Assembly (NCBI RefSeq): GCF_017431965.1
Contig: NZ_JAFRKB010000027.1
Location: 1-64,000 of the forward strand
Length of the DNA: 64,000 nucleotides
From: Methanobrevibacter sp.
Lineage (GTDB): Archaea; Methanobacteriota; Methanobacteria; Methanobacteriales; Methanobacteriaceae
Reading direction: 5' to 3'
This document shows positions 6,676 to 54,787 of the stretch, piece after piece (positions within the stretch are counted from its first letter, which is position 1; the number at the start of each line of letters is the position of its first letter). Made by a program: the position numbers and the translations under genes. The notes under the pieces are model-generated. The model ran no database searches. It was given only the letters and a program-made list of their open reading frames with translations, and was not told where the DNA came from.

Positions 6676-6701
6676 TTTAATAACTCCTTTAAACAATTTA
6701 T

Positions 6702-6908: not shown

Positions 6909-6960
6909 TTCGAAATCCTCCTTTATATAATATATTAATAATTATCCAATAAAAATGTAT

Positions 6961-7167
6961 TTATTTTCCTACAATAACTTCGGTAGATTTTATGATAGCT
7001 GATACATCATCGCCTTCAGATAAACCTAATTTCTCAACAGACTCTTTAGTGATAACAGCAGTAATTACACCCGGTTCAGCAATCTCAATTTTAACATTAG
7101 CCATTACAGCACCAAGTTCAACACCAGTAACTTTACCATTCAATTGATTTCTTGCACTAAGTTTCAT
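6961..7167 (-). CDS. Mop-type molybdopterin/molybdate-binding protein, copy 3
   Basis: A 68-residue Mop/TOBE protein, the third copy. It is nearly identical to copy 2 (LNGKVTGVELG, VKIEIAEPGVITAVIT, ESVEKLGLSEGDDVSAIIKS). A GGGAGG ribosome site precedes the ATG. The 52 bp between copies 3 and 4 is the longest spacer in the array and is AT-rich, so it might hold an extra promoter. I see no clear TATA box there. Confidence 0.9.
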   Translation of the reverse strand: MKLSARNQLNGKVTGVELGAVMANVKIEIAEPGVITAVITKESVEKLGLSEGDDVSAIIKSTEVIVGK

Positions 7168-7191
7168 TTCGATTCCTCCCTTTTAATAAAT

Positions 7192-7398
7192 CTATTTTCC
7201 TACAATAACTTCAGTTGATTTGATTAAAGCGACTACGTCATCACCTTCAGCTAACCCTAAGTTTTCGACAGACTCTTTAGTAATCACTGCTGTGATAACT
7301 CCAGGTTCAGCGATCTCAATTTTAACATTAGCCATTACAGCACCAAGTTCAACACCAGTAACTTTACCATTCAATTGATTTCTTGCACTAAGTTTCAT
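7192..7398 (-). CDS. Mop-type molybdopterin/molybdate-binding protein, copy 2
   Basis: A 68-residue Mop/TOBE protein, second copy in transcription order, with the full domain and the ESVENLGLAEGDDVVALIKS variant near the C-terminus. A GGAGG ribosome site stands before the ATG at 7398. Only about 24 bp separate it from copies 1 and 3 on either side, so it must be cotranscribed. Confidence 0.9.
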   Translation of the reverse strand: MKLSARNQLNGKVTGVELGAVMANVKIEIAEPGVITAVITKESVENLGLAEGDDVVALIKSTEVIVGK

Positions 7399-7423
7399 TT
7401 TATATTCCTCCTTGATTTAAAAT

Positions 7424-7630
7424 TTATTTTCCTACAATAACTTCAGTTGATTTGATGATAGCTGCTACTTCATCACCTTCAGCTAACCCTAAGTTTTCGG
7501 CAGATTCTTTGGTGATCACTGCAGTAATAACATTTGGTTCTGAAATTTCGATTTTAATATTAGCCATTACAGCACCAAGTTCAACATTTGTAATTTTTCC
7601 ATTTAATTGATTTCTTGCACTAAGTTTCAT
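7424..7630 (-). CDS. Mop-type molybdopterin/molybdate-binding protein, copy 1
   Basis: First gene of the five-gene Mop array, 68 residues with the Mop/TOBE fold. It carries the ITNVELG and NVITAVIT variants, also seen in part in copy 5. The ATG at 7630 follows AAAGAGGT. A longer frame from 7654 would add a lysine-rich head not shared by the other copies. The promoter (TTTATATA, 7677-7684, minus strand) stands just upstream with a TATCGA motif between box and gene. Confidence 0.9.
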   Translation of the reverse strand: MKLSARNQLNGKITNVELGAVMANIKIEISEPNVITAVITKESAENLGLAEGDEVAAIIKSTEVIVGK

Positions 7631-7975
7631 TTTAATACCTCTTTGTGTTTTCACAATAATAAATTGTATCGAATTGTATATAAATGTTTCGGTTTTTTAC
7701 AAATAAAGAATTTTTAAATCGATTACCTAAAATGCTACATATCGATATAATTTTAACAAGATGAAAAATAAAAAAATTAATAATAAAACTATAAATTAAT
7801 TATAACTAACTAAAAATTTTAAAAAATAATAAAAAAAATAATTAAGTATCTTTTAATAATTTTGATAAATAATAATAAGTTATATTAAATTTTATCGAAA
7901 TTCATAAAATACTATCGAAACAGTATCTTCCATTTCTAGAAAATTTTATTAAAAAAATATTACAGATTATGAAAT
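7631..7975. promoter_or_regulatory. AT-rich gap with Mop-array promoter and repeated ATCGA motifs
   Basis: No gene is seen in this 345 bp gap between the divergent Mop array and trmO. A minus-strand TATA box (TTTATATA, 7677-7684) would start transcription near 7650. The motif ATCGA occurs five times: at 7668, 7718 (as ATCGAT), 7741 (as ATCGAT), 7894 and 7914. The last two lie in TATCGAAA repeats spaced 20 bp apart, two turns of the helix. In such AT-rich sequence the repetition suggests an operator, but no known regulator site is recognised. Confidence 0.4.
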
Positions 7976-32160: not shown

Positions 32161-32205
32161 TTTTTAAAAAAAAAAGTTAAAGGAGAGAGTGAAATTCTCC
32201 TTTTT
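32161..32205 (-). terminator. Terminator of the giant adhesin gene
   Basis: Read on the minus strand, AAAGGAGA pairs with TCTCCTTT around a short loop directly after the stop codon and is followed by a run of about ten T. The same hairpin and T-run follow the other three adhesin loci. Confidence 0.7.
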
Positions 32206-35200: not shown

Positions 35201-38200
35201 ATATTTGGTAATATAAAGAGCTCCACCGGAAGTTACAGCATGATTATCGATGAAATCGGAATTGTAAATGTTCAACTCATTATATGAAATAATTGCACCG
35301 CCACCTAAACCACTGCCATCAGGAGACTCTTTTCCTGTGACTGAATTGTTGATGAAATGTGAATCATGCACATTGACTTTATTATGGACATTTAAAGCTC
35401 CACCGGACTCATTTGCAGAATTATTTACAAAATTACAATTAATAAATTCATTTACCCGAGCATTGGAAAATACTGCACCGCCGGAGTTGGCGCAATTATC
35501 TACGAAATTACAGTCAGTGAAATAATTGGATGAAACACTGGAAAATACTGCACCGCCATTATAATTCGCCGCATTATCAGTGAAATTAGTAGATGAAACC
35601 AAAACATTTCCAGCACCGACCATATAAATTGCTGCCCCATGTACATCAGCAGAGTTATTTTCAAAGCAGGAATTTTCAATATGGCTAGTTTCAGTACTCA
35701 TCAAATATAATCCTCCACCCATATTAGCGGAATCATTGATAAACTTACAATTGTTTAAGTTTATATCGAATAATGAATAGATTGCTCCTCCAGATTGGGT
35801 TGCTGAAGAATTGATAAAGATACAGTTGTTTAAAGTGACATTGCGTCCGGCAATATATATTCCACCACCATTGACGGAAGAGGTATTGACAAATACAATA
35901 TCATTTAAAACGACATTATTGGAAGAGATATATAAAGCTGTGGCCTTGTTCAATCCATCAAGAACATGTCCGTTACCGTTAATGGTTAACTGCTTATCAA
36001 TACGGACACCATAATCACCATCATCCACATACTCATCATAAACATAATCATGGTTCAAGGAGATTACGGATTTGTCTGGCGCACTGTTAACAATATCTTG
36101 GATAGCATTAAATGAATATGACTCCTTAGTGGCATCAACAATGAAATTTAATTTAACAATATTGGATTCGTATAAATTATCCTTATACTGTGCAGATAAA
36201 GTGTGGATTCCGTCATCCAAATTAAGGTTTAGACAAGCCACACCATTTTTAATTTGAGCATAATAAGTTTTATCGTCAACAATGAACTTCAACAAACAAT
36301 AATTGATGGAACTTATATCCTCGAAATCATCAAAACTGACTTTAATATTGAAATTCTTAGTATTAATTGTTTTAACATCATTTGTGCTAATCCTTATTCT
36401 TTTTGGATTGATGTTTTGAGTGAAAGCTTTTATACAGGCCACATGGCAACTGTCAACATAATCATGCAAATCATACCATGTTTCACCATCCAAACTTACA
36501 AAAGAAACATTATCATTAAATGTCTTTTTGGTAATTTCCTCAGCATAACAAAGAGGAATGCAACTGTAACCTTTAGCATTGTGATTATGAACTGCAATGC
36601 TGAATTTATCATCCTTATTTAGCTGTATGAAGTTATTGAACCTAATTGTATAATATCCTGCAGCGGAAGTTCCGTTTTGAGCGAAAACAAACTCGTCATT
36701 AACATAAACACTTACGGTATAATCTGTTTGTGTATCAAAATAAGTTGAAAACGCAGACAATAGACTATCATCTTCAGCTACAAATGTATTTTTGAAATAG
36801 ATTGAACCAGGATAATGGTAAAACTGACTTACGCCTGCAAAATCATACTGATAGACTTTAGCATAAGGATTTGCATCACTGAAAACGAAAGTGTAGGCAT
36901 GCATGCCCGGATCAATCTGTTCTGATATTTTCTGATTATAGGACAGATATCCGAAACCGTTGTTTTCCCAATCTTCACCAAAACTGTTTTTAAATATCCA
37001 GGCACCATTTGCCTTATTGCCTATGGAGTCATATCCAACGTAATCATCATCCCATCCCACAAGGGAAACTGCGTGATAATCCTTGCCCCATTTAAAGATT
37101 ACTGAAACAGCACCATAATCCATAATTGCAATTTTGTACAAGTCATTGTCGCTGCTGTCTGAACGGGCTGGCAGAAACTTAATGTTTTGAATATGGAACA
37201 TCGGATTTTCCAGAACGGATATTGTTGAATAATCATCATAGCTTTCTGTAGACTCGTCAATCGGACCCAGCCAGCTTGTCAGATAACTCATCATCATGGA
37301 GTCATATCCACCAAAGTTGGTTTCGATTTTTATACCATAAACGGAGTACGCAGCCATCAGGTTTTTAGCGTTTTCTTCTGAAAAGTCATAAGTGACTCCT
37401 GTTGCCTTTTTAATACATGTTTCTAGAGTTGCAAGACCAGCAAAAGCCCAACAGTTACCACCATTCTTTTGATCCTTAACAGAACTAACAAAACCATAAT
37501 CATTAGAATCGTAATATGCCGGCAATGTCCTGACATCAGAGGAGTTGGAAGATGAATCATTGATTAATGTAACCGGCGAGAAGGAATTATCCTCATAAAG
37601 GTTATCGGATTTGATACTAAAGTCTACTGCATAGGATTCTATAAGATTGTTATCAGACAAATCTATACTATAAGTTTTAATGATATTATACCCATCAAAG
37701 AGACTTTCTCTTGAACCGGAATATACATTAGTGTCATCTTTTCTATCAAAAAATACTCCACTGTTGAAATCTTCCAACAAATAAAGATTCAAGACAGGAT
37801 TGTCAAACTCCTCACTAAAGCTAACTTTAGCAGAAACGTTACGAATCACATTACCAGTAGCAATTGAAGAAATATTTGAAGCATCATCATTATCATAAAT
37901 CACAATACTGACCAAACCATCATCCACCTCAAAAATAGGGTATGGCAAATACAACTTCGGATTCTCTTCAGAAGACAGTTGATAATACAAAGGATTACTT
38001 ATTAAGTAATAATTCTCATCATCTAAAGTTGCCTTAAACTCAGCAAAAAGATGATAATTATTACCAAATGAATTAAAATAAGAACCCAAACTTTCTTTCT
38101 TTCCATCGAAAAATATTACTGCTCCTTCTTGAGCAAAAGAATCACCAAAATCATTGGAATATAAACTAATATTATTTGTAATCCTGGTATATATGGCCCC

Positions 38201-41200
38201 TCCGATTAAAGCGTGACTTAGATTGAACCTATTTTTGAAAAAGTTTAGAGTGCCATAAATATCATAGATTACTCCTCCATAATAGTTTGCGAAATTATCA
38301 CTATAATTGGAGTTATATGAATCTAAGATTGAATTTATATTACAGATGGCACCACCAAATTCAGCATCATTGCCATCAAAAATTGAATTGAAAATGCTTA
38401 ATTTACCTTTTGAATTATAAACAGCCCCGCCACCATCGGTTAAAGATAAAGAATTGTCAAAATTGCTTTCTTCAATAGAGATATATGAATTTAATGAAGC
38501 GATGCATCCTCCAAAACTGAAAGATACTGAACCGTTAAAATTAGATTGGTGCATATAAATATCACAATTTTCACAATAGATTGAACCGCCATAATAAGAA
38601 GTATAATCATCATACCTGCCTACATTGGAATCCCCAACACTGGAAATGGTAAATGGAGTAAATTGAGAATCATGGATATTTAAATTAGAGTTAACAGAAT
38701 ATATTGCACCACCTTTGTAAGTAGCGGAATAATACATAAACACAGTATTTGAAATGGAAATATCTGAATTTATAGCAGCAATAACCCCTCCGTTGAAAGC
38801 ATCATAGACCTCATCAAACCAACATCCGTCTAAAATTAAGGTAGATCTAACATTGTTTGGAGCATCACAAACAATCACTCCACCATAAGAGCTGTCAAAT
38901 AGGCCGGAACCTGATTCGATTTTTGGAAGATTTTTCAAATCAAATACATCATTACCTTCAAAATAGGAATCCTTTGCAAGTAATGTAGCATGATTGAGAA
39001 TATTTATATTATTCAATTGTAGGTTATTTAACTCCAGATATGAGTTTTCCTTGATTATAAAATCATACTGATTGGACACTCTAGAGTTAATAACAGCATC
39101 AGAAGTTTTACCTATTAATTTTGCTCCGTCAATTATACAGGTAGTGTTTAAATCATATGTTCCCTTTGCAAAGTAAGCAGTGACTCCAGGAGTGATCCTG
39201 CTAGGGTATAAATATTTGTATGGATTGTTTTCAGATCCGTCTCCGTCCTGTTGGGCGGATGCATCAAAGTAAATAATATTGTTATCATATAAAGAGTCTG
39301 GAATTATGGTATTGTATGTATCGTTTCCATGACCTCCTGCTTTATTGTCTTTGAAAATGCAGTTGGTTGCGGATTCGCCATACATTGCTCCACCGTTTTC
39401 TGTTGCTTCATTATCCTTGAAGTAACTATCTTTAGCTTTAACCTGGTATGTGGCACCACCATTTCTGGCAGTGTTATTTATAAACCTGCATTCATTTGCA
39501 GTATCATCAATACCATATATTGCACCGCCGAAATCAGCAAAGTTTTCAATGAAACTGCAATTTTCAGTGCTAATTCCATCATATATTGCTCCGCCATAAT
39601 CAGCATAGTTTTCAGTGAAACTACAATCAATAGAAGTACTGGCATATGATGCACCACCAAAAATTGCGTAATTTCCTGTGAAAATGCAATTTTTAGCTGA
39701 ACCCTCTTTCATTGCACCACCGTAATCCGCATAGTTTTCCGTGAAATTACAATTCACACAATTGACACCATAGACTGCACCTGCTTCCCATAATGCTGAG
39801 TTTCCAGTGAAATTACAATTCCTAATAGTGCCACTGATTACAGAATCTACAGCACCTCCAACGTTAGCAGAATTTTCAACGAAAGTACATTCAATGATAA
39901 AGTTCATAAAATTTGAAATTGCCCCACCTCTGTATGCTGAATTTCTTGTAAAAATACAATTACTAAAAGAACCATGAACTGCAGCACCACCACTATAACT
40001 CGCTGAATTTTCAGTGAAACTAGAATTCACAACAGAATTAGACTTGTAACTAGAGCCATACATAGCCCCACCAGAATAAGCAGAATTGTTAACAAAACTA
40101 CAATTTACAATAGAACTATAGTCATAACGGGAATGATAGATAGCACCACCTGAATCAATTGCAGAATTGTCAATGAAAATAGAATTCACAGCAATATAAC
40201 TAGACCTAGAACTGGAATCATATATAGCACCCCCATTCCTAGCAGAATTATTAATAAAAGTACAATTATTAGCGTGACCATATTTCATTGCACCACCACT
40301 CTCTGCAGAATTATTAATAAAACTAGAATTTACAGCAGAACCACCATAAACAGCACCCGCGGTACTTGCAGAATTATTAATAAAAACACAATTCAAAATA
40401 GAATTAATACTATCAATAGCACCACCCCACTCAGCAGAATTATTAATAAAAATACAATTCACAGCAGAATCACCATAATACATAGCACCACCATAACGAG
40501 CCGAATTATTAATGAAAGTACAATAAACAGCAGAATCGCCCTCAAAAGCACCACATACATTAGAAGCAGAATTATTAATGAAAGTACAATTAAAAGCAGA
40601 ATCACCACCTTCTACAGCACCCCCATTCATTGCAGAGTTATTAATAAAAATACAATTACTAGCAGAATCACCAAACATAGCACCACCCCACTCAGCAGAA
40701 TTATTAATGAAAGTACAGTTCACAGCATCACCACCATAATCCATAGCACCACCAGAATCACTTGCAGAATTATTAATAAAAATACAATTCACAACAGACC
40801 TAGATTTCTGCCAATACCCAGTGATAGCACCACCACTTCCTGCAGAATTATTAACAAAACTGCAATTCAAAACATTAAAGTCCTCATATGAACAAATTGC
40901 ACCACCATCGTATGCAGAATTACTGATGAAAATACAATTGATAACACTCACAAAATCATATACAGCACCACCATCAGTAGCAGAATTATTAATAAAAGTA
41001 CAATTCAAAGCAGATCCTCCATTAATTGCACCACCATATCGATTTTTACCATTCACAAAAACAATATCCATAAAAGCAACTTTATTATTAGCATTAAAAA
41101 TACCCGCAGTATTATCACCATCAATAGTAAAACCATTACCATGAATTGTCACAACACGGCTAATACGAATACCATATTTAAAACTATAATCTGTACTTAA

Positions 41201-44086
41201 ATCAAATGCATAATCATCATTCAAATAGACATCCTCATCATTATTGTCGTTTATTAGTTCATTTAAATCCCAGAACGATTTGATCAATTCATTATCAAAC
41301 CAAGTTACATTATATGTGTTTTTTCCATTAGGGATGTAATTCTTTTTAAATTTAGAATTAATGGATACTTTAGCACTATATATTGCCGCACCATAAGCAG
41401 TTGCATTATTATAATAAAATGTACAGTTAGTGGCTTTACCTTTACTCATTGCACCACCATTTTCTGCAGAATTATATTCAAATAAACAGTTAGCTACTAA
41501 AACCTCACAAACCGCACCACCCCCATTATTAGCGTGATTTTTTGTGAAATTGGAATTGACGGAAATGCCGCCGTACATTGCTCCACCATTTTCTGATGCA
41601 ACATTATCACTAAAAGTACAGCAATAAGTTCTGATCTGATATGTTGCTCCACCATTAGTAGCACTATTATTAATAAACACACAGTAATTTGCATCATCCC
41701 TATCATCATAGGCCGCTTCACTATACATCGCTCCACCAAGTGCAGCAGTATTATTAATAAAAGTACAATTTACAGCCGTGATATTAGAATCAGAACTAGA
41801 ATCATAATCATACATAGCACCACCATAATGTCCTGCAGAATTACCAACAAAACTACAATTAAAAGCAGAAGCACCATCCATAGCACCACCATCACGGTCT
41901 GCAGAATTACCAACAAAACTACAATTAAAAGCAGAACCGTCAACCATGGCGCCACCATTTCTTGCAGAATTACCAACAAAACTACAATTCACAGCAGAAA
42001 CACCAACAAGAGCACCACCATCATTAGCAGAATTATTAACAAAACTACAATTCACAGCAGAACCAGATTCATACATTGCACCACCACTCGCAGCAGAATT
42101 ATTAACAAAACTACAATTCACAACAGAACCACCATAAATGGCACCACCATAAAGCCTTGCAGAATTACTAACAAAACTACAATTCACAGCAGAACCACCA
42201 TAAATGGCACCAGCCCACCAGAAACCATAATTATTAACAAAACTACAATTTACAGCAGAACCACCATAAATTGCACCACCTTTCCTTGCAGTATTGCCCA
42301 TAAAACTACAATTCACAGCAATTGAACTAGAATTAGAAACACAAACCGCACCACCATCACTTTGAGCGTTCCCATTTACAAAAACAATATCTCTTAAAAT
42401 TACATTACCACTAGAAGCAAATAAAATACGGGCAGAATAGGCTCCATCAATTGTATGGCCATTACCATGGATAGTCATATCACGACTAATTACAATACCC
42501 TCTTTAAAACTAGAATCTGTAGTTACATCAAAAGCATAATCATAATTCAAATAGATATTTTTATCATCATTGTTGTTTATTAACTCATTTAAATCAGTGA
42601 ATGTTTTAATAGTATCAAACCAAGTTACATTATATGTGTCTTTTCCATGAGGGGCGTAATTATTTTTAAATTTGGAACTTGTAGATACTTTAGCATTATA
42701 TACTGCACCACCATAAGCTGTTGCATTATTATAATAAAATATACAACCAGTGGCTCTACCTTTACTCATCGCACCACCATTTTTCGCAGAATTACTAACA
42801 AAACTACAATTCACAGCAGAACCATCATACATAGCACCGCCATCATTAGCATGATTTTTTGTGAAATTAGAGTTAAAAGAAGCATGACCATAAACTGCTC
42901 CCCCATTTTCTAATGCAGTATTCTCATTAAAAGTACAGTAATTATTAGTGACCTGATATGTTGCTCCACCATTAGTAGCACTATTATTAATGAACACACA
43001 ATAATCTGCAGCAATCATATCACCAAACATAGCACCACCATTAAAATCTGCATGGTTATCTTGGAAAACACAATTAGAAGCAGACACACGGCATAATGCA
43101 CCACCATCATCTTTGGCAGAATTGCCCGTAAAACTACAATTCACAGCAATAGAACTATAATTATTATCAGAATCATAATCAAACAGAGCCCCACCATTTT
43201 TTGCAGAATTATTAATAAAAGTACAATTCACAACAGGACTAGAACTAGAAACACGCATAGCACCACCTGCCCAATCCGCATAATTATTAATAAAAGTACA
43301 ATTCACAGCAGAACCCTCATACATAGCACCGCCAGTATCGGCAGAATTATTAATAAAAGTACAATTCACAGCAGAACCCTCATACATAGCACCTCCCCAA
43401 TATTCAGCAGAATTACTAATAAAAGTACAATTCACAACATTAGCGCTTCCATCTTTTGAAGAAATAGCTCCCCCATCTCCTGCTGCATAATTATTAATAA
43501 AAGTACAATTCACAACATTAGAACTCTTACCTTCCGAATAAATAGCTCCTCCATTCTTGCTAGCATAATTATTAATAAAAGTACAATTCACAAAAGAACC
43601 ACCAAATACAGCACCGCCACCTCTATATGGAGAGTTACCATTCATAAAAACAATATTCCTAAAAACAACATTACTATCAGAAACACCATAATAAACCATA
43701 AAAATACTGGTAGCATTCGCTCCATCAATTGTATAACCATTACCATGAATAGTCACGGCACGATTAATGCCAATACTTCCTAAATCAGAATCAGTATCTG
43801 GATTATAAGTATAATTACAATTTAAATAAATATGAGTTTTAGTATTGCCATTAATAAGATTATTCAAGTCAGTGAATGTTTTTGGATTTGCATTTAAAAC
43901 ATCATCATCAATGATTGAAGTTAAATCATTATCAATTTCACTTGTTATATTACCATCTTGATTTTGGACACTAACAACATCACCCGTAACATTATCTGCA
44001 GCATTTACAGCAGAAACTGCAAGCAAACAAGTAAGAATAATTGTTAGCATTATTATCTTTTTATATCGCAAAATGTTTTCCCCCAT
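32204..44086 (-). CDS. Giant adhesin-like protein with embedded papain-like protease
   Basis: A secreted surface protein of 3960 residues. A signal peptide (about 1-29, ending AVSAVNA) is followed by three right-handed beta-helix blocks. Each opens with the same cap (FTDLNxLI...TIHGNGxTIDG) near residues 69, 494 and 935, with dozens of VNCTFINNSA/GGAMY coils of about 20 residues. A less regular region follows (about 1600-2100). Next comes a C1A peptidase with Gln2206, Cys2212, His2338 and Asn2367, then a lectin-like domain (about 2410-2555). A fourth beta-helix starts near 2659 and six Ig-like repeats run from about 3440 to the end. A TTG at 44071 (start MRYKKIIML, as in the other adhesins) is an alternative start. 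There is no C-terminal anchor helix. Confidence 0.92.
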   Translation of the reverse strand: MGENILRYKKIIMLTIILTCLLAVSAVNAADNVTGDVVSVQNQDGNITSEIDNDLTSIIDDDVLNANPKTFTDLNNLINGNTKTHIYLNCNYTYNPDTDSDLGSIGINRAVTIHGNGYTIDGANATSIFMVYYGVSDSNVVFRNIVFMNGNSPYRGGGAVFGGSFVNCTFINNYASKNGGAIYSEGKSSNVVNCTFINNYAAGDGGAISSKDGSANVVNCTFISNSAEYWGGAMYEGSAVNCTFINNSADTGGAMYEGSAVNCTFINNYADWAGGAMRVSSSSPVVNCTFINNSAKNGGALFDYDSDNNYSSIAVNCSFTGNSAKDDGGALCRVSASNCVFQDNHADFNGGAMFGDMIAADYCVFINNSATNGGATYQVTNNYCTFNENTALENGGAVYGHASFNSNFTKNHANDGGAMYDGSAVNCSFVSNSAKNGGAMSKGRATGCIFYYNNATAYGGAVYNAKVSTSSKFKNNYAPHGKDTYNVTWFDTIKTFTDLNELINNNDDKNIYLNYDYAFDVTTDSSFKEGIVISRDMTIHGNGHTIDGAYSARILFASSGNVILRDIVFVNGNAQSDGGAVCVSNSSSIAVNCSFMGNTARKGGAIYGGSAVNCSFVNNYGFWWAGAIYGGSAVNCSFVSNSARLYGGAIYGGSVVNCSFVNNSAASGGAMYESGSAVNCSFVNNSANDGGALVGVSAVNCSFVGNSARNGGAMVDGSAFNCSFVGNSADRDGGAMDGASAFNCSFVGNSAGHYGGAMYDYDSSSDSNITAVNCTFINNTAALGGAMYSEAAYDDRDDANYCVFINNSATNGGATYQIRTYCCTFSDNVASENGGAMYGGISVNSNFTKNHANNGGGAVCEVLVANCLFEYNSAENGGAMSKGKATNCTFYYNNATAYGAAIYSAKVSINSKFKKNYIPNGKNTYNVTWFDNELIKSFWDLNELINDNNDEDVYLNDDYAFDLSTDYSFKYGIRISRVVTIHGNGFTIDGDNTAGIFNANNKVAFMDIVFVNGKNRYGGAINGGSALNCTFINNSATDGGAVYDFVSVINCIFISNSAYDGGAICSYEDFNVLNCSFVNNSAGSGGAITGYWQKSRSVVNCIFINNSASDSGGAMDYGGDAVNCTFINNSAEWGGAMFGDSASNCIFINNSAMNGGAVEGGDSAFNCTFINNSASNVCGAFEGDSAVYCTFINNSARYGGAMYYGDSAVNCIFINNSAEWGGAIDSINSILNCVFINNSASTAGAVYGGSAVNSSFINNSAESGGAMKYGHANNCTFINNSARNGGAIYDSSSRSSYIAVNSIFIDNSAIDSGGAIYHSRYDYSSIVNCSFVNNSAYSGGAMYGSSYKSNSVVNSSFTENSASYSGGAAVHGSFSNCIFTRNSAYRGGAISNFMNFIIECTFVENSANVGGAVDSVISGTIRNCNFTGNSALWEAGAVYGVNCVNCNFTENYADYGGAMKEGSAKNCIFTGNYAIFGGASYASTSIDCSFTENYADYGGAIYDGISTENCSFIENFADFGGAIYGIDDTANECRFINNTARNGGATYQVKAKDSYFKDNEATENGGAMYGESATNCIFKDNKAGGHGNDTYNTIIPDSLYDNNIIYFDASAQQDGDGSENNPYKYLYPSRITPGVTAYFAKGTYDLNTTCIIDGAKLIGKTSDAVINSRVSNQYDFIIKENSYLELNNLQLNNINILNHATLLAKDSYFEGNDVFDLKNLPKIESGSGLFDSSYGGVIVCDAPNNVRSTLILDGCWFDEVYDAFNGGVIAAINSDISISNTVFMYYSATYKGGAIYSVNSNLNIHDSQFTPFTISSVGDSNVGRYDDYTSYYGGSIYCENCDIYMHQSNFNGSVSFSFGGCIASLNSYISIEESNFDNSLSLTDGGGAVYNSKGKLSIFNSIFDGNDAEFGGAICNINSILDSYNSNYSDNFANYYGGVIYDIYGTLNFFKNRFNLSHALIGGAIYTRITNNISLYSNDFGDSFAQEGAVIFFDGKKESLGSYFNSFGNNYHLFAEFKATLDDENYYLISNPLYYQLSSEENPKLYLPYPIFEVDDGLVSIVIYDNDDASNISSIATGNVIRNVSAKVSFSEEFDNPVLNLYLLEDFNSGVFFDRKDDTNVYSGSRESLFDGYNIIKTYSIDLSDNNLIESYAVDFSIKSDNLYEDNSFSPVTLINDSSSNSSDVRTLPAYYDSNDYGFVSSVKDQKNGGNCWAFAGLATLETCIKKATGVTYDFSEENAKNLMAAYSVYGIKIETNFGGYDSMMMSYLTSWLGPIDESTESYDDYSTISVLENPMFHIQNIKFLPARSDSSDNDLYKIAIMDYGAVSVIFKWGKDYHAVSLVGWDDDYVGYDSIGNKANGAWIFKNSFGEDWENNGFGYLSYNQKISEQIDPGMHAYTFVFSDANPYAKVYQYDFAGVSQFYHYPGSIYFKNTFVAEDDSLLSAFSTYFDTQTDYTVSVYVNDEFVFAQNGTSAAGYYTIRFNNFIQLNKDDKFSIAVHNHNAKGYSCIPLCYAEEITKKTFNDNVSFVSLDGETWYDLHDYVDSCHVACIKAFTQNINPKRIRISTNDVKTINTKNFNIKVSFDDFEDISSINYCLLKFIVDDKTYYAQIKNGVACLNLNLDDGIHTLSAQYKDNLYESNIVKLNFIVDATKESYSFNAIQDIVNSAPDKSVISLNHDYVYDEYVDDGDYGVRIDKQLTINGNGHVLDGLNKATALYISSNNVVLNDIVFVNTSSVNGGGIYIAGRNVTLNNCIFINSSATQSGGAIYSLFDINLNNCKFINDSANMGGGLYLMSTETSHIENSCFENNSADVHGAAIYMVGAGNVLVSSTNFTDNAANYNGGAVFSSVSSNYFTDCNFVDNCANSGGAVFSNARVNEFINCNFVNNSANESGGALNVHNKVNVHDSHFINNSVTGKESPDGSGLGGGAIISYNELNIYNSDFIDNHAVTSGGALYITKYLNVYGSNFINNSASKSGGAVYTTPLQMIKEDSSETEMAVTKFAESNYYDSTFMGNHAETGGAIYNPNLVENCTFMDNVASKYGGAIENDGIMDVYDSSFINNSAIYGGAIDNEGNISVYSSYFAKNSADKGGAGIYSGGECNVAESDFVDNSAIYGGAIYLQTDGVIENSSFADNSADSGGAIYSKSECVIANTSFDNNSANYGGAINNFGNLSVYSCDFTNNSADRSGAGIYSGGECYVAESDFADNSANWGGAIYLQTEGVIEDSSFINNSASSDGGAIYSKSECIVENSSFTDNSANWGGAIDNEGDMRIYSCDFTGNCADKSGGGIYSSESCYVVDSDFVDNSALSGAAIISFGNLSVNSCDFTSNCADNYGGGIYSGGECYVVLSDFADNSANYGGAIYMQNDGLIENSSFISNSAGSYGGAICYGYADWCYFQDNVAGLDGDDVYNTEILTLLSVSDFTSYYNSGDKLMVNLTNSKGIPIANVNASISVYKNDDLVGTYYCLSGDGWVVDLEDGEYVAVVNVNPAYLIDPAYSNILIAKLKTDIAAEDVIVGYGSDATLVATLTSEASGQPIKSANVKFTVDGQKYSVKTDSDGQAMLTISGLASGTYPVVVSYGGNSKYSSSSKTLNIVVNKIATGISVDYDNPAKELTATLINSETGQAIKSANVRFEIDGQKYSVKTDSDGQAKLNISDLDFGTYEVVVSYGGNSKYVSSSITENIVVSKIATGISVYYDNPAKELTATLINSETGQAIRSANVRFEVDGQKYSVKTDSAGQAKLTISNLALGAYPVTVSYDGNSKYNSSSITANIVVSKITTSISLYYDNSTKELVATLINSETGQAIKGANVVFNYNGVKTSIKTDKQGQARLLIGDADPNIQSASISYGGNSKYLKSTASIKIIEGKIATRLSNTYDNETQEAVATLINHETGQLIKGATVVFNINGVKTALKTDKLGQVRLSVADLDLVVNSISSSYGGNFKYCGTTANINIVKI

Positions 44087-46705: not shown

Positions 46706-46742
46706 AAAAAAGTTAAAGGAGAAAAAATATCCTCCTTTTTTA
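46706..46742 (-). terminator. Terminator of the broken adhesin locus
   Basis: On the minus strand, AAAGGAGGA pairs with TCTCCTTT-like sequence after the stop codon, then a T-run. The cassette is retained although the gene in front is broken. Confidence 0.6.
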
Positions 46743-47653
46743 GATTTTAACGAAATAAATTCTTGCAACTGATCCGGCGTATTTGCTGTTTCCACCGTAT
46801 GAACTGCTTATATAGTATTCATCCGGATTTAAACCAGCAACTGACATTTTGACCTGACCAAGCTTATCAGTTTTTAAAGCAGTTTTAACGCCATTGAAGT
46901 TGAATACAACAGTTGCTCCTTTAATTGCCTGACCTGTTTCCCTATTAATCAGGGTAGCCACTACTTCCTGTGTCTCTTTGTAATAGAAATTGGAAATGAC
47001 AGTTGAAATTTTTTCAATTTGAAGCTTTATTGAGCCGTATGAGCCTAAATATTTGCTGTTTCCTCCGTATGAAAGACTTGCGCTTTCAACAACAGGATCA
47101 CCAATGTATAACCTTGCCTGACCCTGCTTATCAGAAGTCATGGCTGACTTACCGCACCACCGTAGCCTAGAGCAGAATTGCTTATGAAAGTACAGTTTAT
47201 GGAAGTACATTTACCATCAATAGCACCACCGTTATCAACTGTTTTACCATTTATAAAAACAATATCCCTCACTATTACATCCGCATTGGTCGGCGAAAAG
47301 ATTCTTGCAGCATTGTTCCCATTTAAAGTATAACCGTTACCCCAAATTGTCACGACACGACTAATATTGATCCCTTCCTTAAAGTCAACATCAACATTTG
47401 GGTCAAATGTATAATTACAGTTCAAATAAACTTCGCTGCCACTATTGCCATTAATAAGATTATTCAAATCTTTAAAGGTATTTTGTGTTTCTTTTAAAAT
47501 TTCAGTGTCTGTGCTTTGATAAATTGCAATATGCCCTTCATCGGTTGCTAATTTATCAGTGAATTCAGTTGTTAAATCACTTGCACTTACTGAAGATATG
47601 GTTCCTATTATTAGAAGTAAAACTAATATTAAAAAAACCCTTTTATCAAACAT
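46740..47653 (-). pseudogene. Broken adhesin-like gene (internal deletion with frameshift)
   Basis: The first part (47653 down to 47138) codes a signal peptide (MFDKRVFLILVLLLIIGTISSVSASD), the cap TFKDLNNLINGNSG and the first coils, ending GYGGAVSQP and a stop. The second part (from about 47145 to 46740) continues in another frame as the last two Ig-like repeats, beginning SAMTSDKQGQ. Near the join, beta-helix coil sequence passes directly into Ig repeat sequence. A recombination that removed the middle left the halves out of frame. The second part matches the end of the 789-residue adhesin almost residue for residue. A secreted 171-residue fragment could still be made. Confidence 0.85.
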
Positions 47654-47880: not shown

Positions 47881-47934
47881 CGATGAACATTCAAAAATAT
47901 GCTGAAGCGATTTGGTATATTGACTGGTGAAAAT

Positions 47935-49008
47935 ATGAAATTTAAGTATTTTTTTGCATTAGTCTTGCTCACAACAGTCATATTATCACTTGGAACCGCA
48001 GCGGCCAGTGAAAATATTGATTATAATGCAAGTTCTTCAGATGATACTTCTTCGTCTATCACCCTTCAGAGTCAATCCGTTGATTCCACTTTGGATGCCA
48101 GCGACGATGAAGTTGATTTATATGTTGATATGGAACTTGGTGACATCAAAAGGGAAACCTTTGCCATCGGATCCATGACCTTTGAAATTCCGTTGATTAT
48201 AACTGTCAACGCCAACAATGGGACTGCAAAAAACGTGAATGTCTATCATACCATTCCTGATGACTTCATTTATCTTTCATCCGATGCAACTGCTGGAAGC
48301 TATGACAGTGAAAGTGGAATATGGCACATTGGCGATATGGGCAGTGCAACTAGTGCAACATTGACAATATTGACAAAACTGGAAAAGTCTGGAACATTTT
48401 TCATATTTGTCAATGCAACAACAGATTCCGATGATGTAGATTTAACAAACAATGATTTAAAATCTACCATTACAGCCAATACAAGAATTTCATCAAATAC
48501 AACTAGGACAAGTGCTGATCAGGGCGGAGCCAGCCATGGTCTTCGCGGAAACAATCATGGACCTAAAGTTGTAAAAAGAGATGACCAAACCTCAAATAAT
48601 CAAAATCAGGAATCTGGAAACGGAGAAAACTCCAACAATAACGAAGGAAGCAACAACGGAGAAGGCTCCAACAGCAATAACGGGGAAACTAACAACAACG
48701 GAGAAGGCTCCAACAGCAATAACGGACAAAGCAACTACAACAATAATGGAGCAAGTTCAAACAGCAACAACAGGGAAAATGAAAATTCCGGATTAACCAA
48801 ATCCACTGAATCATTAACTGATGCAATTTCAGATACATTGGTATCCATAAGGAACATATTTAATTCAAATTCCTCTGATTATAACTTAACTCCAGAAGTT
48901 GTTAAAGCTATTTCAGCTCAGGATTATACAAGAATTCCTATCTTGATTTTTATAGCGCTCCTAATTATTATATCCGGCTCTGTTGCTTACGATAAAATTA
49001 AAACTTAA
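47935..49008 (+). CDS. Membrane-anchored DUF11-type surface protein
   Basis: A protein of about 357 residues. A signal peptide (MKFKYFFALVLLTTVILSLG) comes first, then a conserved-repeat (DUF11-like) beta domain (about 45-165, with NGTAKNVNVYHTIPDDF). A long Asn/Gly/Ser/Glu-rich linker (about 190-290) follows, then a C-terminal membrane helix (IPILIFIALLIIISGSVAY) with a short basic tail. The linker probably spans the pseudomurein wall. I chose the ATG at 47935, behind GGTGA; the longer frame from 47899 would hide the signal peptide. Unlike the adhesins, it has a real membrane anchor. Confidence 0.85.
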   Translation: MKFKYFFALVLLTTVILSLGTAAASENIDYNASSSDDTSSSITLQSQSVDSTLDASDDEVDLYVDMELGDIKRETFAIGSMTFEIPLIITVNANNGTAKNVNVYHTIPDDFIYLSSDATAGSYDSESGIWHIGDMGSATSATLTILTKLEKSGTFFIFVNATTDSDDVDLTNNDLKSTITANTRISSNTTRTSADQGGASHGLRGNNHGPKVVKRDDQTSNNQNQESGNGENSNNNEGSNNGEGSNSNNGETNNNGEGSNSNNGQSNYNNNGASSNSNNRENENSGLTKSTESLTDAISDTLVSIRNIFNSNSSDYNLTPEVVKAISAQDYTRIPILIFIALLIIISGSVAYDKIKT

Positions 49009-49101: not shown

Positions 49102-49965
49102 TCAGGAAGATATCACATAATCATCTGTGGAAATTACGTTATTGTTTAAATCAATCAATTTAAAGCCAACATGTGTTGCATTATCAGCATTTATATCTCC
49201 TTGCCACATTATTCCTGACTTAAACTCATCTGCTGTGGAGTTTACTTCAAAAAGCATATTGTCCTGAGCATCGAAGAACTTAATGTTCATGACATAATTT
49301 TGACTGTCGGAAGGCAAATTATAAGATTCGCCATGGACAATGTAGTTGGTTCCGCTGACATCAACATCAGTAATGTTCATGGAAAACAAACCATCACCAG
49401 TAGTATTCTGCCCCATAGGCAAAATCAAGAAGAAATAAACCAAAACCAATGCTATAACCACCGGAATGGCTATTTTAATATATTTCTCAATTTTATTTTC
49501 CCTTTTTCGAGGATTGATCTCGTCAAAAAAGCTGACAGATTCAGAATCAATCTTTACCTTGCTTACAGGCTTTCCTACGATTTCGGAAGTTTTCTTAACT
49601 AGTGTCTCTAACTGCCTTTTGGAATATGGGAATGAATTTACCACAACCTGGTTTTCCAGAATAAATTCCAGATTTCCTCCTATTTTCGTATCATCAATTT
49701 TGTATACAACAATCGGTATCTCTCTAGAAAATGCAATGTCAGCTTCCGTAAGGACATAATTTGTATCCTTCGTATGCTTGGAAAAGACCAAAAGAAAACA
49801 TTTAGAATCTGCAATTGCATTGGTTATCTTATCAACACTGTCAGCAGAAGACATATGTTTTGATTTAATCCAGGATTTAATGTTGTTCTTTTCAAATACG
49901 CGGTAAATCTCTTCACCAACTTCCTTATTCTCATTATCATAGCATATATAAACATCATGACCCAT
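49102..49965 (-). CDS. Membrane-bound TIR protein with outer domain
   Basis: A protein of about 287 residues. The N-terminal TIR-like domain (about 1-135) shows HDVYICYDNENKEVG, a strand FLLVFSKHTKD and the conserved glutamate in NYVLTEADIAF (E77 counted from the GTG). A linker leads to one membrane helix (about 165-187) and an outer beta-rich domain of about 100 residues with several N-x-S/T sites. The TIR domain is predicted inside and the sensor part outside, a receptor-like plan. The ATG at 49965 is preferred over a GTG at 49974. It is the third gene of a three-gene operon. Confidence 0.82.
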   Translation of the reverse strand: MGHDVYICYDNENKEVGEEIYRVFEKNNIKSWIKSKHMSSADSVDKITNAIADSKCFLLVFSKHTKDTNYVLTEADIAFSREIPIVVYKIDDTKIGGNLEFILENQVVVNSFPYSKRQLETLVKKTSEIVGKPVSKVKIDSESVSFFDEINPRKRENKIEKYIKIAIPVVIALVLVYFFLILPMGQNTTGDGLFSMNITDVDVSGTNYIVHGESYNLPSDSQNYVMNIKFFDAQDNMLFEVNSTADEFKSGIMWQGDINADNATHVGFKLIDLNNNVISTDDYVISS

Positions 49966-49979
49966 ATCAATCACAACTG

Positions 49980-50819
49980 TTACAATCTAATATATTCATC
50001 ATATAAGTATGAGAAAATCTCATCATTTGAAGAAGTGAACCTTAAAACTGATTTTCTTGTTAAGAATTCATTTCTGATTACCAGTCCATGGATTACGGCT
50101 ATAATCCAAAATATTAAAGCCAAAACGACAAACAATACGAATATTGGATAATAAAGGAACAACAAATCTATTATTTCAAAATAAAATGCAAAACACATCA
50201 GAAGTGGAATGGCATAGAGTAAACCCATCAGAACCCATAACTTTTTGGTGGCGACAATTCCCATATAGAAAAATGAAGCCCAATAAAGAACAGGTATTGC
50301 CAGCAACACAAGAGATATTATATCTTTTTTATGACTGGACAAATCTTTTTGATTATAATTGCTTAAATCAACAGTGACAGGAGTGTCCTTTTTTTGTTTG
50401 CATAACTCAAATGCATTTTCAACGACTTCCTTTAAATCATCATTAGAATCAGGATCTATCGGTAGCCATTGAGTTACCTTTAAAAAATATTCCATATCTT
50501 CCTTAGGAAGAGAATCATCAATATTTACGGACAAAAGAGGCTTATTGTGAGAATATGCCATATTAATTTCATTGTTAACATATTTTGATGCCTGAGAAAA
50601 CTCGGAGTAAATTAAAACTACAATTTTAGTTGACCTGATTGCATCTGCAATAGCATCAATGTAGACTGTGCCCGGAGGAATATTTCTAGGAGCAATCCAA
50701 CATGGAAGACCATTCTGTTCGAGAGCATAACGTATTTTATTTGCAACTTCACTGTTTCTTGTAGAATAACTTATAAATACCTTATGTTTATCATCATCGA
50801 AAGATTTTTCAGGACTCAT
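49980..50819 (-). CDS. TIR-domain multi-pass membrane protein
   Basis: A 279-residue protein with an N-terminal TIR domain (about 10-140). KVFISYSTRNSEVANKIRYAL opens the fold, PCWIAPRNIPPG forms the BB-loop region and YVNNEINMAYS carries the conserved glutamate (E84) used by NAD-cleaving TIR enzymes. Four membrane helices follow (about 168-246), then a short cytoplasmic tail. Its ATG overlaps the stop of the upstream gene (ATGA), and the next TIR gene starts 14 bp downstream. Enzyme activity is not proven. Confidence 0.85.
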   Translation of the reverse strand: MSPEKSFDDDKHKVFISYSTRNSEVANKIRYALEQNGLPCWIAPRNIPPGTVYIDAIADAIRSTKIVVLIYSEFSQASKYVNNEINMAYSHNKPLLSVNIDDSLPKEDMEYFLKVTQWLPIDPDSNDDLKEVVENAFELCKQKKDTPVTVDLSNYNQKDLSSHKKDIISLVLLAIPVLYWASFFYMGIVATKKLWVLMGLLYAIPLLMCFAFYFEIIDLLFLYYPIFVLFVVLALIFWIIAVIHGLVIRNEFLTRKSVLRFTSSNDEIFSYLYDEYIRL

Positions 50820-51310
50820 AATACCACCCGACTGTTAAATGCTGAATCTGTAACAAAATTCCTGTTGTTCCCTTCAAATAGATATACTGTTGCAGAATCA
50901 TTAAATGTAAAATCATTCTTGTTGAATGAATCAATAGGGATAACCATGGAATGATATTTAAAACCAGAACCATCATCAAATTCAACTGTAACTAGATAAC
51001 TATTTTCATTTAAGTAATCAACACCACCTTTACCGAAATTTGCATAATGATTTATCAGATTTGTTACCCTTTCGTTTGAAGAGTTTAATTTACTAACATC
51101 CATATTGTAAAAATCGTATAAAATATTTCTAAATTCGACAGTATCCCCATTAACCTTATAAGAAGAGCTTGTAGGGTGATACATGGCTATTGAATCAGTT
51201 ATGTTATCTTCCCTTTCAGGGTATTTATAACCCATCATGGTCGCAAAACCATATATCAATAATACAATTACTGTTGCAATAATTAAATATTCAATTAGTC
51301 TTTTATTCAT
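50816..51310 (-). CDS. Membrane-anchored outer protein of the TIR operon
   Basis: A 164-residue protein with a single N-terminal membrane helix (EYLIIATVIVLLIYGFATMM, about 7-26) and an outer domain of about 135 residues. The outer domain has NLINHYANFGKGGVDYLN and several Asn sites. No family is recognised. It leads the operon and overlaps the first TIR gene by four bases, so the two are translationally coupled. It may be the ligand-binding or adaptor part of the TIR complex; this is inference. The ATG follows AGGTG. Confidence 0.75.
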   Translation of the reverse strand: MNKRLIEYLIIATVIVLLIYGFATMMGYKYPEREDNITDSIAMYHPTSSSYKVNGDTVEFRNILYDFYNMDVSKLNSSNERVTNLINHYANFGKGGVDYLNENSYLVTVEFDDGSGFKYHSMVIPIDSFNKNDFTFNDSATVYLFEGNNRNFVTDSAFNSRVVL

Positions 51311-51346
51311 CTAAACACCTAATGAACAGTTGAATAATAATTTAAA

Positions 51347-51530: not shown

Positions 51531-51571
51531 TAAAAAAAAAAGTTAAAGGAGAGAGTGGAATTTCTCCTTTA
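51531..51571 (-). terminator. Terminator of the 1072-residue adhesin gene
   Basis: On the minus strand AAAGGAGAAA pairs with CTCTCCTTT after the stop codon and is followed by a run of T. Fourth instance of the adhesin terminator cassette. Confidence 0.7.
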
Positions 51572-54500
51572 TATTTTAACGAAGCTTATTCTTGCAACTG
51601 ATCCGGCATATTTGCTGTTTCCGCCGTATGAGCTGCTTATATAGTATTCATCTGGAATCAAATCTGCAACTGACAGTTTAACCTGGCCGAGTTTATCGGT
51701 TTTTAAAGCTGTTTTGACGCCATTGAAGTTGAACACTACAGTTGCTCCTTTGATGGCCTGGCCGGTTTCCCTGTTAATAAGTGTAGCCACTACTTCCTGT
51801 GTTTCTTTGTAATAGAAATTGGAAATAACGGTTGAAATTTTGTCGGTTACAATCTTTGTTGATGCATATGATTTGAGGTATTTGTTGTTTCCACCATATG
51901 AAAGGCTAGCATTATTAGCGCTAGGCTCACCAATATATAACCTTGCCTGACCAAACTTATCGGATTTAGCAGAGGTTTTTACACCATCATAATTGAATAC
52001 TATTGTAGCACCTTTAATTGCCTGACCGGTTTCACTATTGATTAATGTAGCAACAAGTTCCTGGGTTGACTCATCATAATATATAGAAATACTGGTCATA
52101 ATCTTAGTTATGGTGAAATCAACGGTTATACTGGATGGGTTGTATTTGTTGTTACCCAGATAATTGACTGTGGCTTCGTAGGTGCCTAATGCCAAGTCTG
52201 CAACGGAAACTTTTGCCTGACCGTTTGCATCACTCTTAACAGTGGATTTCACACCATTAACCTCAAACCTCACATTTGCATTCTTGATAACCTGACCAGT
52301 AACATCATTGATTAAAGTAGCAACAATCTCTCTAGCTCCGTTATTGAAGTCAATTGAAATAGCAGTTCTTGCTTTAACAATAACATCAACACTTGCGCTG
52401 GAAGGATTATATTTGCTGTTACCCTCATAAGAAGCGGTGACAGTGTAAGTGCCTGCGTCTAAGTTTGCAGTGGAATATATAGCCTTACCGCTAGCATCAG
52501 TTTTGACAGTGTATTTCTTATCACCAACTATAAATCTCACATTAGCGTTTTTAATGACTTGACCGGTAGCACCATTAGTTAAAGTAGCAACAACCTCACC
52601 AGTACCATCATTATAAACTGCAGAAATGTCAGTGTCTATTTTATTTACGGCAAATTCTGTAAAATCACTTGCAGCAAGATAATTTTCATCACCATCAAAT
52701 GATGCGAAAACCTCATAACTGCCTGCAGTCAAACCAGAAACAGATTGACTACCTTTACCATTTACAACATTTACTGTGTATTCAACATCATTAACATCAA
52801 CTAGAACATTACCATTTACTGATGTATCCATTAAAACATTGACAATTGCTGTTTCACCAACATTAATATCATCGACACTTACAGATAAGTTAGGATCCTT
52901 TTTAGAGACTACAATAAGACTTTCAACATCGAATTTTTTGCTTGCATCTGGATAATTACCATTTTGATAGACCAATTCTACTGTATGGTTGCCGTAAGCC
53001 AAATCACGTAAACTAAATACAGCATTTCCATCCTCAATTTGATCTGTTGCATTTTCAATATCATCTACAATTAATTTTACTGTTCCTGTTGCATCAAATG
53101 GCATTGCAACGAGTGCTGTAGTAGCTGACATTCCACCATCCTCAGTAATTATGCTTGGAACTTCAAATTTAATGTAAGTCACATTGAATGAATCATGAGC
53201 ACTTGAAGGTTTAAAGTAGTCATCACCGGAATATTCGAACAGGACATCATGCATTCCGAAATCCAAATCAGATGTATCGACTTCAGCAAAAGCGTCACCA
53301 TACTCAACTTCTACATCACCATAATATACATCATCAACATATATGGATACTACACCTTCAGCAATGAATGGGAACTCAAAAGCAGCATCATAAGTTTGAC
53401 GACCTTGAATGACATTCTGATTGAAGTTATGGTATTCACTGAATGTAATGTTATAATCATCAGTGATATTTTCGTCCGGATCCACCTCTTCTTCAGTTAC
53501 TTCCAAAGTATCTGTCCAACTGTATTCTCCATACCTTCCATCACCGGAATATACTACTTCAATTTCATAAGACCCCGGTATAAGCTCAAATCCTTCCAAC
53601 TCATTTGCATAAATTTCATAATACCAACCATAATTTGGCATAGGAACATCAACAGTATAGCATGGCTCTTCAGCTCCATCTATATAAACACTGATATTAC
53701 CTTCTGCAGACTGAGGGAACCAATACTCAATTACAGTGCCGTTAACATCCTCATAATAAATTAAATCAACAATGATGACATCCGGATCCTCAATATAAGT
53801 ATCATCACCATCTATACCTGCAGTGTTATCCTCGAAAATACAGTCAGTTTCAAAACCGTTAAATATTGCTCCACCATAATTTTCTGCAGTATTTCCAATG
53901 AAAGTAGATTCTAAAGCATCTCCAGTATCCAATGCACCGCCACATTGCTCCGCGTAATTTTCTGTAAATATGGCATTTAGGACAGGTTCATATGCAATAT
54001 AAATTGCTCCGCCATTTTGTGCGGTGTTATGTGTAAAACTGCAGTCTTCACACTCATAAACTTCATATATTGCTCCACCTAAAGAGTAAGCCTGATTATC
54101 ATTGAAGCTGGAATTTATAGCATCACTCTGATATATTGCACCACCGAAATCAGCAGTGTTGTTGTTGAAAATACAATTCTCAGCCACACAACCAAGAGCA
54201 GCACCGCCATAATAAGCAGAATTATCAGTGAAAGTACAGTCTATAGCATGGACTGAAGAAATAGCTCCACCATACTCCGCAGAATTGCCAGTGAAAGTGC
54301 AGTTTATCATTTTAGTATAATCAGAACCACTACCCCAGACAGCACCAGCAACGGGAGCCTCAAAATTATCAGCATTACCGTTTACAAAAATAATGTCTCT
54401 AAATTCAACAATAATTTCTGAATCAACAGTAAAAATTCTTGCAGCATTATACCCGTCGATTGTATGCCCATTTCCATTAATAGTAGTCATATTACGACTG

Positions 54501-54787
54501 ATAACAATACCTTCAATTAAATCGGAATCCTCATAATCATCATAGCGATAATCACTGTCTAAATAAATAGTTTCATTTTCACCAGAATTAATTAGATTAT
54601 TCAAATCAGTGAATGTTGCCCAAGATTCCTTTAACACATCATTTGAAGAAGATAAATCATTATCAACTTCAAGTACATCTCCGTTATCATTTATTCCAAC
54701 AGTTGCATCATCTTGTGCACTTACAGCACCAATCGTCAAGAGTGCAAGTAAAAGACAAGACAATAATATTAACTTTTTATATTTCAT
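51569..54787 (-). CDS. Adhesin-like protein, short beta-helix and long Ig-like stalk
   Basis: A secreted protein of 1072 residues. A signal peptide (MKYKKLILLSCLLLALLTIG, cleavage near SAQ) is followed by the cap TFTDLNNLINSG near residue 60 and a short beta-helix (about 60-330) with CTFTGNSAEYGGAIS-type coils. The rest is a stalk of about eight Ig-like domains. The early ones are diverse (VDLIYYEDVNGT, NVGETAIVNVLM) and the last four carry the standard VATLINxxTGQ repeat. The last 90 residues are nearly the same as in the 44231-46600 adhesin. It lies upstream of the TIR operon on the same strand. Confidence 0.92.
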   Translation of the reverse strand: MKYKKLILLSCLLLALLTIGAVSAQDDATVGINDNGDVLEVDNDLSSSNDVLKESWATFTDLNNLINSGENETIYLDSDYRYDDYEDSDLIEGIVISRNMTTINGNGHTIDGYNAARIFTVDSEIIVEFRDIIFVNGNADNFEAPVAGAVWGSGSDYTKMINCTFTGNSAEYGGAISSVHAIDCTFTDNSAYYGGAALGCVAENCIFNNNTADFGGAIYQSDAINSSFNDNQAYSLGGAIYEVYECEDCSFTHNTAQNGGAIYIAYEPVLNAIFTENYAEQCGGALDTGDALESTFIGNTAENYGGAIFNGFETDCIFEDNTAGIDGDDTYIEDPDVIIVDLIYYEDVNGTVIEYWFPQSAEGNISVYIDGAEEPCYTVDVPMPNYGWYYEIYANELEGFELIPGSYEIEVVYSGDGRYGEYSWTDTLEVTEEEVDPDENITDDYNITFSEYHNFNQNVIQGRQTYDAAFEFPFIAEGVVSIYVDDVYYGDVEVEYGDAFAEVDTSDLDFGMHDVLFEYSGDDYFKPSSAHDSFNVTYIKFEVPSIITEDGGMSATTALVAMPFDATGTVKLIVDDIENATDQIEDGNAVFSLRDLAYGNHTVELVYQNGNYPDASKKFDVESLIVVSKKDPNLSVSVDDINVGETAIVNVLMDTSVNGNVLVDVNDVEYTVNVVNGKGSQSVSGLTAGSYEVFASFDGDENYLAASDFTEFAVNKIDTDISAVYNDGTGEVVATLTNGATGQVIKNANVRFIVGDKKYTVKTDASGKAIYSTANLDAGTYTVTASYEGNSKYNPSSASVDVIVKARTAISIDFNNGAREIVATLINDVTGQVIKNANVRFEVNGVKSTVKSDANGQAKVSVADLALGTYEATVNYLGNNKYNPSSITVDFTITKIMTSISIYYDESTQELVATLINSETGQAIKGATIVFNYDGVKTSAKSDKFGQARLYIGEPSANNASLSYGGNNKYLKSYASTKIVTDKISTVISNFYYKETQEVVATLINRETGQAIKGATVVFNFNGVKTALKTDKLGQVKLSVADLIPDEYYISSSYGGNSKYAGSVARISFVKI

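Follow-up and report, generated by a model that had tools for sequence, protein, structure and literature searches.

Paired membrane TIR proteins next to adhesin genes in Methanobrevibacter: a candidate surface-sensing system

The three-gene unit and its surface-protein neighbours

In a Methanobrevibacter genome (an assembly of 2.05 Mb in 78 contigs), three minus-strand genes, g1, g2 and g3, form an overlapping unit at positions 49102-51310 of the window, which is the whole 64,000-nucleotide stretch of contig C73 that was analysed. As a preliminary description of this DNA had reported, the three ORFs overlap or nearly touch: g1 and g2 share 4 nts (ATGA), and g2 and g3 lie 5-14 nts apart, depending on the start chosen for g3. 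A probable ribosome-binding site of g1 (AGGTG, 51316..51320, minus strand), proposed from the sequence and from a comparison of upstream regions, is kept in most orthologues, and an A+T-rich promoter-like stretch lies upstream of it.

The first gene, g1 (50816..51310, minus strand), encodes a protein of 164 aa with an N-terminal membrane anchor (residues 3-26) and a predicted outer alpha/beta domain, as judged from AlphaFold models, PDB neighbours and orthologues. Searches of g1 against Pfam and, by sequence, against the PDB returned no match. The best AlphaFold model reached a pLDDT of 85.1, two of the five models being poor, and its nearest PDB folds were PsbP, BT_1490 and Tsi3, with E-values of about 1e-3 and modest TM-scores of 0.38-0.45. 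The top structural matches, PsbP and Tsi3, combine a match probability of 0.99-1.00 with that weak E-value, and a PsbP/Mog1-like fold of the outer domain in the C-terminal part of g1 is tentative.

The product of g2 (49980..50819, minus strand; 279 aa) carries a TIR domain of the CWIAPRN lineage (residues 12-140), recognised by Pfam TIR_2 (PF13676; 72.8 bits, E 4.4e-20, cut-off 28), by alignment and in orthologues. Its catalytic-type glutamate, E84 in the sequence YVNNE (codon at 50568..50570, minus strand), is invariant among aligned orthologues and follows an aromatic residue in a Y80-x3-E84 arrangement, and the BB-loop motif is canonical. Helix counts are based on hydropathy, which yields three peaks in the membrane part of g2, the third one long. 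The four membrane helices of the preliminary description, with a cytoplasmic C-terminus, are nevertheless favoured by the length of the third peak, by the basic tail 'RNEFLTRK' and by the lack of N-glycosylation sequons in this tail. Some small multi-helix proteins are weakly related (E 1e-4 to 1e-6) to the transmembrane region of g2. At one locus (L174:2430-4011; L175-L176 are similar), such relatives adjoin a TelA gene, confirmed by Pfam in L174, and loci of this type also hold a zinc-ribbon membrane protein and a two-helix protein.

The third gene, g3 (49102..49965, minus strand; 287 aa), encodes a TIR domain of the KxRD lineage that a single membrane helix connects to an outer seven-strand beta-sandwich. 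Comparison with orthologues places its start at the ATG at codon 4 (49965) rather than at the GTG at 49974, which would add three residues. The TIR domain matches Pfam TIR_2 with 45.2 bits (E 1.6e-11, cut-off 28), and its catalytic-type glutamate, E77 in YVLTE (codon at 49744..49746, minus strand), again stands in an aromatic-x3-Glu arrangement (Y73-x3-E77). Its BB loop is degenerate and lacks the usual motif, for which reason the g3 TIR may be inactive. The AlphaFold model, built with alignments of relatives as input (mean pLDDT 87.8), shows the TIR domain, a helix at residues 157-183 (49426..49506, minus strand; also seen in hydropathy) and the outer sandwich, modelled with a pLDDT of about 88-96. 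The modelled TIR domain superposes on SARM1 (9mw2_A) with a TMt of 0.82 and an rmsd of 1.9 A, and on AbTir (7uxu) with a TMt of 0.72.

The predicted topology is supported by the distribution of sequons, with fewer than expected in the inner parts of g2 (8 against 14.6) and g3 (5 against 14.4) and more than expected in its outer domain (39 against 17.6). Several points of the preliminary description are borne out: both TIR domains keep the helix glutamate, g3 consists of TIR, one helix and an outer beta-rich domain, and the outer domains of g1 and g3 are modelled as folded, not as random coil. The outer domain of g3 is conserved to about the same degree as its TIR domain (56% and 53%). Genomes that lack these TIRs encode zinc-ribbon/one-helix surface proteins with weak similarity to this outer domain; examples from TIR-free relatives, with an outer domain of the g3 type, are found at L014:1306-2007 and L015:1303-2007.

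Surface-protein genes lie on both sides of the unit. Convergent to g3, the plus-strand gene g4 (47899..49008) encodes a surface protein of 369 aa with a signal peptide (likely start 47935), a DUF11 domain (Pfam, 9.2e-16), a low-complexity stalk and a C-terminal membrane anchor. Upstream of g1, at a distance of 258 nts, lies a minus-strand gene for an adhesin-like protein of 1072 aa with Big_3_5 and PMP repeats (51569..54787; Pfam). Two overlapping ORFs at 46740..47653 (minus strand) are the remnant of a broken adhesin gene, as seen from a comparison with genome G002, and relatives carry an intact adhesin beside the TIR operon at this place. Elsewhere in the window, positions 32204-44086 encode a 3960-aa adhesin-like protein whose repeats are interrupted by a papain-like cysteine peptidase motif (QKNGGNCWAFAGLATLE). 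At 6469-7654, four small paralogous ORFs, each of about 68-77 aa, follow one another in tandem; the one tested (7192-7398) is a lone TOBE domain of the kind seen in molybdate-binding proteins.

Conservation and the pairing of two TIR lineages

The survey of conservation covered 151 genomes of the order Methanobacteriales, many of them metagenome assemblies. Full-length g1 was found in 11 genomes and full-length g2 in the identical set of 11, nine of them in the genus of the window and two, G109 among them, in its sister genus. The preliminary description had staked its idea above all on the three genes staying together, and they do: g1, g2 and g3 are adjacent and in the same order in all 11 carriers, across two genera, with g1 identities of 43-77%. 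The 4-nt overlap of g1 and g2 is exact in each carrier, and the spacing of g2 and g3 ranges from -4 to 27 nts. Conservation of the set is well beyond chance. In the genome of the window, g2 and g3 are the only TIR_2 matches, and in the collection of named genomes full-length relatives of g2 occur only in gut or rumen Methanobrevibacter, which places the window in this genus, broadly defined. One pair of g3 proteins, from contig G035:C314 and from G124, is 80% identical across genera; this contig may be a contaminant.

Beyond what had been described before, the comparison brought out a conserved surface gene, adhesins inside the operons of relatives and a systematic pairing of TIR domains. The surface gene is g4, whose family (E<1e-70) is present in nine of the 11 carriers and in none of the 140 other genomes, the next matches being partial and at 1e-26 or weaker; by a simple count, uncorrected for relatedness, the probability of this confinement is ~6e-13. 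In most relatives g4 follows g3 on the same strand, and in G035 the two overlap by 4 nts; the convergent g4 of the window is closer to the second g4 copy of G002 (60%).

The association with adhesins, suggested earlier from the window alone, is real and stronger than had been claimed. A same-strand adhesin-like gene adjoins the operon at nine of 11 loci, with smallest gaps of 3-35 nts, a count that includes G002, in which the adhesin follows g4, and excludes G014, in which it lies on the opposite strand. In G087 and G065 the order is g3-adhesin-g4, with gaps of 35 and -4 nts, and in G025 and G023 an adhesin precedes g1 by 3-24 nts. The background rate of such adjacency was taken from the published count for M. 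ruminantium M1, in which adhesin-like genes make up 105 of 2217 ORFs, or about 5% (PMC2812497). With adhesin genes so frequent in these genomes, an operon would sometimes have one as its neighbour anyway, but not at nine of 11 loci and with operon-like spacing.

Searches with g2 and g3 revealed related operons in the same genus, referred to here as types B and C, the g1-g2-g3 operon being type A. Type B encodes two TIR/one-helix/outer proteins and an anchored outer protein of 240 aa, and in several genomes it is accompanied by one and the same cluster of housekeeping genes. At all eight readable type B loci a same-strand adhesin gene lies directly upstream, and at five loci or more this is an adhesin of ~690 aa that is similar over its full length (40-66% identity). 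The small outer protein of type B was rejected as a homologue of g1, the profile alignment (probability 59%) covering only the membrane anchor and the start. Type C encodes a g1-like protein, a TIR protein with four membrane helices and then either a TIR-TIR-helix protein or a TIR protein with two helices; with a probability of 92% in profile comparison, its small protein is likely homologous to g1. Two near-identical type C operons in one genome (L055 and L056, at G002:C90 and C119) precede tandemly repeated genes for a small secreted protein (five paralogues of 140-175 aa) and probably reflect contigs that were duplicated or split in the assembly.

In all 27 intact operons, one TIR of the CWIAPRN lineage (VFISYS...CWIAPRN) is combined with one or two TIRs of the other (VYICYD...CWxKxRD), when small variations of each motif are tolerated in the assignment. 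The two kinds form separate lineages with 100% support in a tree of all rows, the diverged KxRD member L047 included, whether the BB loop is removed or not. The catalytic glutamate is present in 84 of the 88 TIR domains that cover the site, with aspartate in the other four, and an aromatic residue stands four positions before it in most. The operon of the window fits this pairing class, with one TIR of each lineage plus g1. The distinctive invariant of the family is this obligate pairing of two TIR lineages and not a Toll-like order of domains. Some genomes hold several copies of the operon. In G087, which carries five paired membrane TIR operons, two adjacent genes on contig C11 (L070:8164-11966) each encode four tandem TIR domains, a mixture of APRN, KxRD and a third kind.

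A possible surface-sensing mechanism and its alternatives

The explanation that we consider best, at about even odds, is an adhesin-linked signalling system in which a hetero-TIR pair would respond to events at the cell surface. On the outer face of the membrane, g3 would expose its beta-sandwich and g1 its PsbP-like domain, together with the DUF11 protein g4 and, in most cases, an adhesin from a neighbouring gene; inside would be the two different TIR domains of g2 and g3. The trigger, either the adhesin binding its target or injury to the wall or membrane, could be relayed through g1 and g3, upon which the g3 TIR (KxRD, degenerate BB loop) would gather with the g2 TIR (CWIAPRN, intact BB loop). 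The assembled TIRs would then cleave NAD+, leading to a cyclic-ADP-ribose-type signal or to loss of NAD+, with the four-helix domain of g2 holding the enzyme in the membrane and perhaps serving as sensor or output as well. Both the outside-in activation and the NAD+ chemistry are inferred. The glutamates, the aromatic-x3-Glu arrangements and the modelled fold of g3 suggest that the TIRs are of the NADase type, and we infer that most of the catalysis would fall to the g2 TIR, whose BB loop is intact, with the g3 TIR acting as the receptor arm, a division of labour that parallels the Sau-Thoeris system. More tentatively, the operon may be a Toll-like archaeal surface receptor in which the adhesin and outer domains sense a cell or virus and an obligate, membrane-bound pair of TIR enzymes, drawn from two old lineages, produces a NAD+-derived signal.

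As to purpose, one rather unlikely form of the hetero-TIR surface receptor is abortive defence, in which virus adsorption, wall lysis or a contact attack would activate the TIR pair, deplete NAD+ and stop the cell. TIR domains serve abortive defence in CBASS and SPARTA. They act in the same way in Thoeris (PMC11312562), and a defence role would suit the patchy distribution of the operon (11/151), its several copies in some genomes and the divergence of its proteins, which are 44-88% (mostly 44-77%) identical between species with RpoB identities of 90-97%. This divergence tracks RpoB poorly, identity within the genus being hardly above that across genera, and the cross-genus g3 pair adds to the same picture. 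Against defence, the window holds no defence genes around the operon, a generic ABC ATPase being the sole match, and the genomic linkage is to adhesins; type B keeps the same housekeeping cluster nearby, and the outer domain of g3 is conserved like the TIR, unlike a fast-diversifying ligand site. No relatives of g1 or g2 were present in the viral contigs searched, on which ground a viral origin of the operon was rejected, and no link to viruses or mobile elements was found.

Only marginally less probable is a role in partner contact: attachment of the adhesin to rumen bacteria, protozoa or other cells would be reported by the TIR pair, with altered metabolism or adhesin expression as the output rather than killing of the cell. 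The adhesins beside nine of 11 type A loci and all eight readable type B loci argue for such signalling between partners, as do the conserved outer domains and the behaviour of M. ruminantium M1, which co-aggregates and upregulates six adhesin-like proteins in coculture (PMC2812497). However, NADases of the TIR type usually act in responses to damage or death, the unit includes no transcription factor or other regulator, and the distribution is patchy.

It is improbable that the TIRs serve as a scaffold only, organising surface proteins as adaptors, as in animal Toll receptors, without NAD+ chemistry. The missing BB-loop motif of g3 and the aspartate in four related TIRs would agree with this, but both TIRs of the window and 84 of 88 overall retain the glutamate, most have the aromatic residue four positions before it, and the modelled g3 TIR fits NADase TIR structures well. 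Finally, a chance co-location of unrelated surface and TIR genes, to which the abundance of adhesin genes in the window and its relatives and the local rearrangement shown by the broken adhesin (46740-47653) might point, is very improbable, and for g1-g2-g3 and g4 it is already contradicted by the adjacency of the three genes in 11 of 11 carriers with non-identical surroundings and by the confinement of g4 to carrier genomes.

Should the hetero-TIR surface-sensing system be real, it would constitute a TIR pathway separate from Thoeris that senses outside the cell and has branched into three or more architectures in a single family of gut methanogens. Rumen methanogens matter for methane emission, and little is understood of how they interact with partners, hosts and viruses. 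The pairing of two lineages also makes the idea of a sensor TIR plus an enzyme TIR directly testable biochemically.

Comparison with known TIR systems

The preliminary description had noted that no Thoeris, CBASS or Argonaute gene adjoins the operon, and searches of neighbours and genomes rule out these types. PADLOC found no CBASS or Argonaute gene among 26 window proteins, its single match being the ABC ATPase. The ThsA-type STALD domain (PF18185) is absent from ten of 11 carriers, its one match (G035:C49) lying on another contig than the operon; the macro domain of type II Thoeris was found neither in g1-g4 nor in the flanking adhesin, and the type III Thoeris model ThcB4 (NF058526, NCBIfam) scored 30.8 bits against a cut-off of 220. 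No recognisable receptor for a cyclic-ADP-ribose signal was detected near the operon. In the open-access literature, a scope that is not proof of absence, no description of a paired membrane TIR system was found, and the main text of the M. ruminantium M1 genome paper does not mention TIR (PMC2812497).

The domains of g2 and g3 nevertheless resemble those of Thoeris, being of the TIR_2/ThsB_TIR type with a catalytic glutamate. In Sau-Thoeris (ThsB1/ThsB2 and ThsA), a sensor TIR that binds the trigger recruits a second, catalytic TIR, and the likeness extends to the use of two different TIR proteins per system, one possibly a sensor and one an enzyme (PMC11312562). Unlike Thoeris, the TIRs of g2 and g3 are membrane-anchored and linked to outer domains, and surface proteins belong to the unit. 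A closer source of comparison by taxonomy is TcpO of M. olleyae, from the same genus as the window or a sister genus, which is a NADase that produces v-cADPR (PMC10022894, PMC10937652); in contrast to the proteins of the paired operons, TcpO has 341 aa and a C-terminal TIR (204-341). SARM1 and AbTir share with g3 the aromatic-x3-Glu motif and the TIR fold but are soluble or otherwise regulated, without outer domains.

The order of parts in g3 had been presented as the mirror of animal Toll receptors. That order is present, but it is nothing special: in a neutral search, 34 of 55 bacterial TIR ORFs had an N-terminal TIR, one helix and an outer region, so the resemblance is generic and its novelty is ruled out. 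Bacterial proteins such as those at L109, L121 and L154 have the same order of parts as g3, with other outer domains (PDZ, FGE-sulfatase, TPR). Single-chain proteins with TIR, one helix and outer region also occur in Syntrophomonadaceae metagenome assemblies (L158:3458-4357, L163:1971-3629), where the outer region begins with a stretch of the 'SGAGTLRWAL' type that recalls beta-helix surface proteins and, in L163, has a weak Ig (Big_6) match; these are possibly fused TIR-surface proteins in a bacterial group that lives with methanogens.

With Toll-like and IL-1 receptors, g3 shares a single membrane helix that joins an outside domain to a cytoplasmic TIR, as well as the assumed TIR-TIR pairing, and the Ig-like beta-sandwich outside recalls the IL-1 receptor in outline. 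It differs from animal Toll-like receptors in its N-terminal TIR and in its small outer domain without LRR; it is likely a NADase rather than an adaptor, and there is no sign of specific descent. To our knowledge, the prokaryotic TIR immune systems (Thoeris, CBASS and SPARTA) all detect their triggers intracellularly. Were a TIR pair to work together with outer domains and a co-encoded adhesin, TIR sensing would move to the cell surface, as in animals.
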